Source of the DNA: Streptomyces sp. DG1A-41
GTDB taxonomy: Bacteria; Actinomycetota; Actinomycetes; Streptomycetales; Streptomycetaceae
Direction of reading: 5' to 3'
Assembly (NCBI RefSeq): GCF_037055355.1
Contig: NZ_CP146350.1
Location: 4,301,001-4,365,000 of the forward strand
DNA length: 64,000 nt
A program made the translations under genes and the position numbers. The notes below the pieces were generated by a model. It made no database searches and had not been told where the DNA came from. It was given only the letters and a program-made list of their open reading frames with translations. Of this stretch, positions 1,261 through 16,349 are shown piece after piece. How positions within the stretch are numbered: position 1 is the stretch's first letter; every line of letters begins with the position of its first letter.

Positions 1261-1578
1261 GTGGCTCAGAAGGTCGTGGTCACTCTCTTTGACGACATCG
1301 ACGGCTCGGAAGCGGCGGAAACGATCGCCTTCGGACTGGACGGCAAGTCATACGAGATCGACCTGAACGAAGTCAATGCCGACGAACTGCGGAAGGCGCT
1401 CGCGCCCTACGTGGAGGCCGGCCGCAAGCGGTCCCGCTCGGGCCGGGCGTACCGGCAGACGGAGGTCGCCCCCGACCCGTCGGCCGTGCGGGCCTGGGCC
1501 CAGGCCAACAAGATGGAGGTCCCCGCGCGCGGGCGCATCCCCAAGAGGATCTACGAGGCGTTCACCGCCGCGCAGTGA
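1261..1578 (+). CDS. Lsr2-family nucleoid-associated protein (LsrL-like paralogue)
   Basis: A 105-residue basic protein with the two Lsr2 parts: an N-terminal dimerisation/bridging domain (about 1-60, starting MAQKVVVTLFDDIDG) and a C-terminal DNA-binding domain (about 70-105). The AT-hook-like RGR occurs at residues 90-92, inside PARGRIPKRIYEAF. Lsr2 proteins bridge AT-rich DNA and silence horizontally acquired and secondary-metabolite genes. Streptomycetes usually have two copies. The position beside purS matches, from memory, the second copy (lsrL) of S. coelicolor, but the paralogue assignment is by context only. The GTG start is supported by a GGAAGGGA upstream. Confidence 0.93.
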   Translation: MAQKVVVTLFDDIDGSEAAETIAFGLDGKSYEIDLNEVNADELRKALAPYVEAGRKRSRSGRAYRQTEVAPDPSAVRAWAQANKMEVPARGRIPKRIYEAFTAAQ

Positions 1579-1712: not shown

Positions 1713-1784
1713 GCGGGTGTAGTTCAGTAGTAGAACATCCCCCTTCCAGGGGGAAGGCGCAGTGTGCGATTCCTGTCACCCGCT
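1713..1784 (+). tRNA. tRNA-Gly(TCC) with non-canonical D- and T-loops
   Basis: The acceptor stem GCGGGTG (1713-1719) pairs perfectly with CACCCGC (1777-1783) and the discriminator is U. The D-stem GTTC/GAAC and the five-pair anticodon stem TCCCC/GGGGA are perfect, and the loop CTTCCAG gives anticodon TCC at 1745-1747. The D-loop is AGTAGTA, so the usual G18G19 reads AG. The T-arm has no GTTC: the segment reads GTGCGATT, and its stem is weak in any register (best is GCAG/CTGT with an enlarged loop). The two neighbouring tRNA-Gly(GCC) genes have normal loops. See findings. Confidence 0.85.
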
Positions 1785-1866: not shown

Positions 1867-1939
1867 GCGGACGTAGCTCAGTTGGTAGAGCGCAACCTTG
1901 CCAAGGTTGAGGTCGCGAGTTCGAGCCTCGTCGTCCGCT
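1867..1939 (+). tRNA. tRNA-Gly(GCC), copy 1
   Basis: A canonical 73-nt cloverleaf: acceptor GCGGACG/CGTCCGC, D-loop with GG, anticodon stem CAACC/GGTTG with loop TTGCCAA (anticodon GCC), and T-loop TTCGAGC. CCA is not encoded. It differs from the copy at 5777-5849 at only three positions, one pair of which is compensatory in the acceptor stem. Confidence 0.96.
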
Positions 1940-1948
1940 CGGGAATGA

Positions 1949-1974
1949 GACCCCGGTCCTGATGGACCGGGGTC
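1949..1974 (+). terminator. Rho-independent-type hairpin after tRNA-Gly cluster
   Basis: An 11-bp perfect stem, GACCCCGGTCC and its complement, around a TGAT loop, followed by TTCTTC. It lies ten bases past the tRNA and ends transcription of the tRNA-Gly pair before the ABC transporter gene. Confidence 0.85.
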
Positions 1975-2069
1975 TTCTTCGTGTTTCCTTCTCCGCTTCT
2001 GACATTTGTCATGCCGAGTGATGACAGCGCGCACTGCTGCCCGCCCTGTCGGGGCGGAACGCTGAAGGC

Positions 2070-16192: not shown

Positions 16193-16249
16193 GCATACGA
16201 GGTTATAGGCGCCCACTGACAACGGACCCGCCACGGCAACCCCGGAACG

Positions 16250-16349
16250 CAAACGCCCCCCACGCACCCGCCAGAGCCGACCTACCCTTGCTGCCTTCCG
16301 GCCCTGGGGGAGTTCAGTCAGATAGCGCCGCGTGAGGGGCTGCGCCAAG
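16250..16349 (-). ncRNA. ffs: Signal recognition particle RNA (small 4.5S type)
   Basis: On the minus strand, the invariant apical loop GGGCCGGAAGGCAGCAAGG lies at about 16286-16304. The flanking arms are complementary (CCCCTCACGC near the 5' end, GCGTGGGGGG near the 3' end), giving a single hairpin of about 100 nt. It lies between dnaX and tRNA-Ser, as is common in Streptomyces. The exact ends are estimated from base pairing. Confidence 0.88.

Follow-up and report, generated by a model that had tools for sequence, protein, structure and literature searches.

The glycine tRNAs that serve wall synthesis in staphylococci carry GUGC in their T-loop, and the wall bridge of Streptomyces consists of one glycine. 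In Staphylococcus aureus, three of the five tRNA-Gly have A49-U65 and A51-U63 instead of G49-U65 and G51-C63, and the same three non-proteinogenic tRNAs have UU or CU in place of G18G19; the portion of PMC4052509 available holds that these changes fit a weak hold of EF-Tu on the tRNA and its diversion into wall synthesis. According to excerpts of two further papers, a staphylococcal tRNA-Gly(UCC) whose D and T loops are altered is charged, yet EF-Tu recognizes it inefficiently (PMC8007984), and the affinity of a tRNA for EF-Tu is set mainly by the pairs 49-65, 50-64 and 51-63 (PMC4499158). The same portion of PMC4052509 names FemX and VanK of Streptomyces coelicolor as users of aminoacyl-tRNA, and remarks that the way in which ribosomes and the wall pathway share the aminoacyl-tRNA pool is in most instances somewhat unclear. 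In the open-access literature on Streptomyces or actinobacterial tRNA or Fem, in so far as its text was accessible, no description was found of a Streptomyces tRNA of the kind reported below.

The window, i.e. the whole stretch of DNA that was analysed, comprises 64,000 nucleotides (G000:C1:4301001-4365000) of a single-contig genome of 8.99 Mb. An earlier note on this DNA had pointed to a glycine tRNA gene with unusual D and T loops and had proposed that it may be dedicated to the wall. The features of the locus are as follows.

1261..1578, + strand: lsr2-type gene upstream, used as a syntenic marker (Pfam Lsr2, 99.8 bits)
1713..1784, + strand: deviant tRNA-Gly(TCC), 72 nt (Rfam RF00005, 53.5 bits; 150 copies from 142 genomes)
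1726..1732, + strand: D-loop AGTAGTA, A18 at 1729 and G19 at 1730 (sequence; A18 in 143 of 150 copies)
1745..1747, + strand: anticodon TCC within the loop CTTCCAG, with C32-G38 (sequence, homologue copies)
1759..1764, + strand: 5' side of the T-stem, GCAG-T-G, T1763 bulged (pair counts across homologues)
1765..1771, + strand: T-loop TGCGATT, G55 at 1766 and C56 at 1767 (sequence, homologue comparison)
1772..1776, + strand: 3' side of the T-stem, CCTGT, pairing with 1764 and 1762-1759 (pair counts across homologues)
1867..1939, + strand: canonical tRNA-Gly(GCC), the downstream neighbour (ARAGORN, Rfam)
1947..1976, + strand: terminator-like hairpin following the GCC tRNA, perhaps common to both tRNAs (consensus scan only)

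Results

A Conserved tRNA-Gly(TCC) Gene with Deviant Loops

The Rfam tRNA covariance model RF00005 matched 1713-1784 with 53.5 bits (E 1.1e-8), above the gathering cut-off of 29, and ARAGORN, run on the window, did not call a tRNA at these positions. The acceptor, D and anticodon stems were all fully paired, in agreement with the earlier description of a tRNA-Gly(TCC) in which these three stems are perfect, and the letters of the D-loop (AGTAGTA, with A at 18) and of GTGCGATT in the T-arm were as previously read. In a letter test over the 80 Rfam tRNA matches that make up the inventory of the genome, this gene alone lacked TTCRA in the T-loop window, and it was among the three that lacked GG in the D-loop window. 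The identity set of bacterial GlyRS is C2-G71, C35, C36 and U73. TCC and U73 were found in all 150 copies read from 142 genomes and C2-G71 in all of the 56 distinct 72-nt sequences used for pair counts, so that the gene has the identity bases of a tRNA-Gly.

A canonical TCC glycine tRNA is present elsewhere in the genome (G000:C1:3058340-3058410, 71.6 bits), and one of the two conditions under which, by the earlier note, the proposal would fall (no other TCC tRNA in the genome) does not hold. The genome also has a canonical CCC glycine tRNA (4976008-4976078, 71.5 bits) and several GCC glycine tRNAs. Compared with the canonical CCC and TCC tRNAs, both of which have G49-U65 and G51-C63, the window tRNA is alike in its GlyRS identity bases, in an acceptor stem identical to that of the CCC tRNA and in an overall identity of 76% to the latter, whereas it differs by an extra T-stem base, by A18/G55 and by A51-U63.

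Other RNA regions of the same genome were noted. Outside the window, eleven same-strand tRNA matches lie within 1.2 kb at G000:C1:5014474-5015654, including a Gly(gcc) of 46.9 bits, an array that a mobile element may carry; two further matches that resemble tRNAs, each about 97 nt long, at G000:C1:4979898-4979994 and 4980236-4980331 (43.5 and 42.7 bits) were not called by ARAGORN. Within the window, 16246-16344 on the minus strand holds a gene for the bacterial small SRP RNA.

The surroundings of the deviant gene recurred in other genomes: of the 83 copies whose flank extends for 190 nt or more, 74 have a GCC tRNA that begins no further than 200 nt downstream, and a short, loose Lsr2 motif lies upstream in all 68 loci tested. 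The anticodon TCC was invariant (150/150 copies), as were U8, A14, U54 and A58 (150/150). All copies are 72 nt long except that of G413, which is 71 nt. The anticodon loop of the 149 copies of 72 nt was only CTTCCAG or TTTCCAA, with a 32/38 pair of C-G in 104 and U-A in 45. This Watson-Crick pair was considered as a bar to decoding and judged weak, the same pairs occurring among the 76 other tRNAs of the genome (C32-G38 in 4, U32-A38 in 9).

Double changes were seen in two pairs of the acceptor stem, one of the D stem and five of the anticodon stem, and therefore selection acts on the folded tRNA. Together with conservation in 142 genomes, they uphold the earlier view that the gene is not a dead one. 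A sequencing error hiding canonical loops, which the note had allowed for, is excluded because the deviant form is conserved in those 142 genomes. Tandem copies, two or three in number, were found in six genomes (G018, G035, G036, G284, G460 and G359; loci L073, L074, L075, L134, L153 and L209), as if dosage mattered. The gene at 1713-1784 is a real, conserved tRNA gene, neither an artefact nor an ordinary one.

Structure of the T-Arm

In the window copy, positions 1759-1762 and 1764 form five pairs with 1772-1776 when T1763 is left out, and this bulged register was paired in 279 of 280 cells in the 56 distinct homologues; the T-stem, previously called weak, thus has five pairs and one bulged base. 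The register given before (CAGTG with CCTGT) was paired in only 112 of 280 cells and was rejected. The minimum-energy fold of the window sequence alone prefers a different T-arm hairpin, CGCA-GTG-TGCG, which as a conserved structure was also rejected (185/224 cells in homologues, broken in several genera). Since the T-arm is near-invariant and provides no covariation to choose between registers, the bulged register is favoured by the pairing of nearly all copies and by G354, in which the bulge is shifted.

The bulged T-arm was present in all 150 copies; the bulged base was T in 148, C in one (G392) and lay one pair lower in one (G354). Positions 18 and 55 were A/G in 143 copies and G/U in the seven copies of genera g119 and g122, and were never mixed. 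A51-U63 was found in all 56 distinct sequences, and so were G19 and C56. The pair 49-65 was G-U in 49 of the 56, including the window copy, and A-U in seven, the holders of A49-U65 being 13 of the 14 copies of genus g120 plus that of G354. Over all copies, 49-65 was G-U in 136 of 150 and 50-64 stayed C-G, both as in the canonical glycine tRNAs of the genome. The earlier claim that G18G19 and TPsiC are both lost therefore stood for G18-Psi55, which A18/G55 replace, and fell for G19 and C56, which are kept; only the G18-Psi55 contact is exchanged, and the G19-C56 pair can still form.

Distribution and History of the Gene

When 61 relatives were searched at the nucleotide level, the deviant tRNA turned up in all 37 same-genus genomes. 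We then used a covariance model built from 15 distinct copies on 296 genomes of the class. All 28 same-genus genomes matched at 97.5 bits or more; among the matches listed, the best one outside the genus scored 74.1 bits, close to the 67 bits that the canonical glycine tRNAs of the genome reach. Five of the 296 gave no match at the cut-off used, and the stricter filters of this search can lose weak matches. In a survey of the family (150 genomes, 17 genera), 107 genomes in 15 genera had the deviant tRNA at E 1e-20 or better. Over the nucleotide search and the family survey it was present in 73 of 73 same-genus genomes. The deviant form is kept in the greater part of the family, with A18/G55 in nearly all copies. 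Phage records gave no match at E 1e-3, and plasmid records gave 10 matches at 76-79%.

The 43 family genomes without the deviant tRNA (20 listed directly, 23 by elimination against the FemAB survey) were all 38 of genus g131, all three of g128, G371 (one of the two of g133) and G456 (g124, 71% complete). A closer search of nine of these 43 genomes returned ordinary glycine tRNA matches only; most of their CCC/TCC matches were read base by base, one locus being too short. Since the g131 genome G358 matches a locus of Kitasatospora sp. CB01950 without a difference over 2,983 bases, g131 is Kitasatospora and the family is the Streptomycetaceae. Judging by the family and by the size of the genus, the window's own genus (g1) is probably Streptomyces. 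What appears to be the same lsr2 place held two GCC tRNAs in three g131/g128 loci. A scan of named records for this arrangement gave at least 80 loci; the 23 of Streptomycetaceae examined (14 Kitasatospora, 9 Streptomyces), among the matches listed, showed both GCC tRNAs in 21 and were cut by the locus end in two, and in none of these 23 was the deviant tRNA found.

In order to place these differences we used a tree of the rpoB region with 30 genomes and two outgroups, whose backbone is poorly supported in places (25 to 47), the branching points used here being unaffected. In the genome that holds the window, the rpoB match (G000:C1:5544061-5545313) falls into two parts that lie in different reading frames, perhaps by a sequencing frameshift. 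Genera g119 and g122, with the bulge and G18/U55 (support 100), form the sister group of the rest of the family (99), and all A18/G55 genomes of the tree fall on the other side. Genera g128 and g131, without the deviant tRNA (support 93), nest among A18/G55 genomes in a clade of support 100 with g120 and g121. By parsimony on this one tree, the order of events suggests that the bulge came first, that the 18/55 exchange happened once, and that the gene was then lost in the ancestor of g128 and g131; G371 is either a separate loss or an assembly gap. The seven early-branching copies with the bulge and normal G18/U55 would be a living intermediate. Genera g122 and g119 may be Embleya and Yinghuangia, and g120 is likely Streptacidiphilus, which fits the branching told in the available part of PMC6113628.

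FemAB Proteins and Wall Chemistry

At least two FemAB proteins are encoded in the genome, and an alanine-racemase-like gene directly follows one of the FemAB genes (L263:2806-3837; G000:C1:4476305-4477336). In the class survey, FemAB proteins occurred in 138 of 296 genomes, i.e. in 28/28 of the same genus and in 110/268 outside it. The deviant tRNA was not found in those 110, four of which, all incomplete, gave no glycine tRNA match. In nine FemAB-bearing genomes outside the family, 30 of 36 matches were read and all had canonical loops by the letter test, a few of them not being glycine tRNAs. Within the family, 149 of 150 genomes had FemAB, including all 43 without the deviant tRNA; the draft G366, the sole genome without a FemAB match, has the tRNA. 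No link between FemAB and the deviant tRNA was found across the 150 family genomes. Because FemAB occurs in genomes without it, the deviant tRNA is not needed for FemX-type enzymes. Kitasatospora has DL- and LL-A2pm, as does Streptacidiphilus according to the available part of PMC6113628; since Streptacidiphilus (likely g120) keeps the tRNA and Kitasatospora lost it, wall chemistry gives no clean division into keepers and losers.

Discussion

By analogy with the staphylococcal tRNAs, the redundant TCC tRNA may now mainly donate glycine outside the ribosome, most likely to the wall bridges made by FemX-type enzymes, a proposal we hold to be evenly poised. It draws on the anatomy of the tRNA and on that analogy. 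A second TCC glycine tRNA would have split off from its ordinary counterparts at the base of the Streptomycetaceae, and the kept C2-G71, C35, C36 and U73 predict charging by GlyRS. The bulge would displace the T-stem strand gripped by EF-Tu and, together with A51-U63, would lower EF-Tu affinity; Gly-tRNA escaping EF-Tu would be free for FemX, and FemX-type enzymes would put its glycine on the diaminopimelate of the wall. As the acceptor stem is that of the genome's CCC tRNA, specialisation would act by exclusion from EF-Tu and not by special recognition by FemX. The wall-dedicated tRNA proposed in the earlier note thus gains from the redundant TCC tRNA, its conservation, the GlyRS identity bases, at least two FemAB proteins and A51-U63, and loses from FemAB in 43 of 43 family genomes without the tRNA. 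That the phage records gave no match also speaks for a donor role, though weakly. A broader statement, which we put forward tentatively and just short of an even chance, is that the Streptomycetaceae independently evolved a tRNA removed from translation by a T-stem bulge, to which the exchange of the near-universal G18-Psi55 contact for A18/G55 was later added, and that they use it to direct glycine into reactions outside the ribosome, above all the wall bridge.

Several observations speak against a donor. U34 is unchanged in 150 copies, which suggests codon reading, and GlyRS should not need U34; with G19-C56 kept, the elbow may fold nearly normally, and both features together speak for some possible decoding role. 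The gene adjoins lsr2 and an ordinary GCC tRNA, not a wall gene, and 49-65 (mostly G-U) and 50-64 (C-G) are like those of canonical glycine tRNAs. The alternative of a ribosomal tRNA of unusual build, which reads GGA/GGG, tolerates A18/G55 and the bulge and is perhaps tuned to growth phase or spores, would draw on the constant TCC, the two anticodon loop forms, U8, A14, U54 and A58, the kept G19/C56 and the adjoining GCC tRNA. We nevertheless regard it as rather unlikely, since a canonical TCC tRNA is present in the genome, Kitasatospora (38/38) and g128 (3/3) do without the deviant tRNA, and both A51-U63 and the bulge are located in the T-stem, which, as the available part of PMC4499158 leads us to infer, EF-Tu contacts.

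The same argument from anatomy would serve a tRNA that gives its glycine neither to the ribosome nor to the wall bridge, e.g. to Gly-tRNA-dependent natural-product enzymes of Streptomyces (DhpK, Orf11) or to the glycylation of lipids or proteins, and Fem-like enzymes of Streptomyces use Gly-tRNA according to the accessible text of PMC12945691; presence in 73 of 73 same-genus genomes is wider than would be expected of one antibiotic pathway, and we consider this improbable. A decaying pseudogene or an assembly error, in spite of the missing ARAGORN call and a score that is low beside the genome's other NCC-type glycine tRNAs, can be practically dismissed in view of conservation over 142 genomes, double stem changes and up to three tandem copies.

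The preferred reading, a tRNA that mainly donates glycine outside translation, most likely to the wall, matters because every same-genus genome sampled keeps this redundant, odd glycine tRNA, which makes the question of how the pool is divided directly testable by deletion in a model genus that is harmless, with the intermediates that combine the bulge with G18/U55 and the Kitasatospora losses as natural controls. If true, it would add a second tRNA that independently came to be reserved for work outside translation, and a clear example in which the G18-Psi55 contact has been exchanged. A T-stem bulge as a device for removal from translation was not reported in those parts of the related tRNA literature that were found.

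Comparison with Known Systems

A single-base T-stem bulge in a bacterial tRNA is shared with the selC* tRNA-Cys with bulged A51a described in the available part of PMC7609411, which differs in its 8/4 build, in its amino acid and in the position of the bulge. The wall tRNA-Gly(UCC) of Staphylococcus is alike in being a redundant UCC isoacceptor beside a canonical one, in changes to both D-loop and T-loop (here the loss of G18 and G55 in 143/150 copies), in A51-U63 (all distinct copies here) and, in part, in A49-U65 (some copies here, mostly of g120, the window copy having G49-U65), and in a genome with FemABX-type proteins. In the staphylococcal tRNAs both G18 and G19 are replaced according to the portion of PMC4052509 available, whereas here G19 stays (56/56); the T-stem bulge is present here, and none is mentioned for the staphylococcal tRNAs in the accessible portions of PMC4052509 and PMC8007984. 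Staphylococcus belongs to another phylum and has five glycines in its bridge, against one in Streptomyces. The deviant tRNA looks built to avoid the ribosome, perhaps supplying wall glycine as the staphylococcal tRNA does, and by this analogy it most likely works like the staphylococcal wall tRNAs, though with G19 retained.
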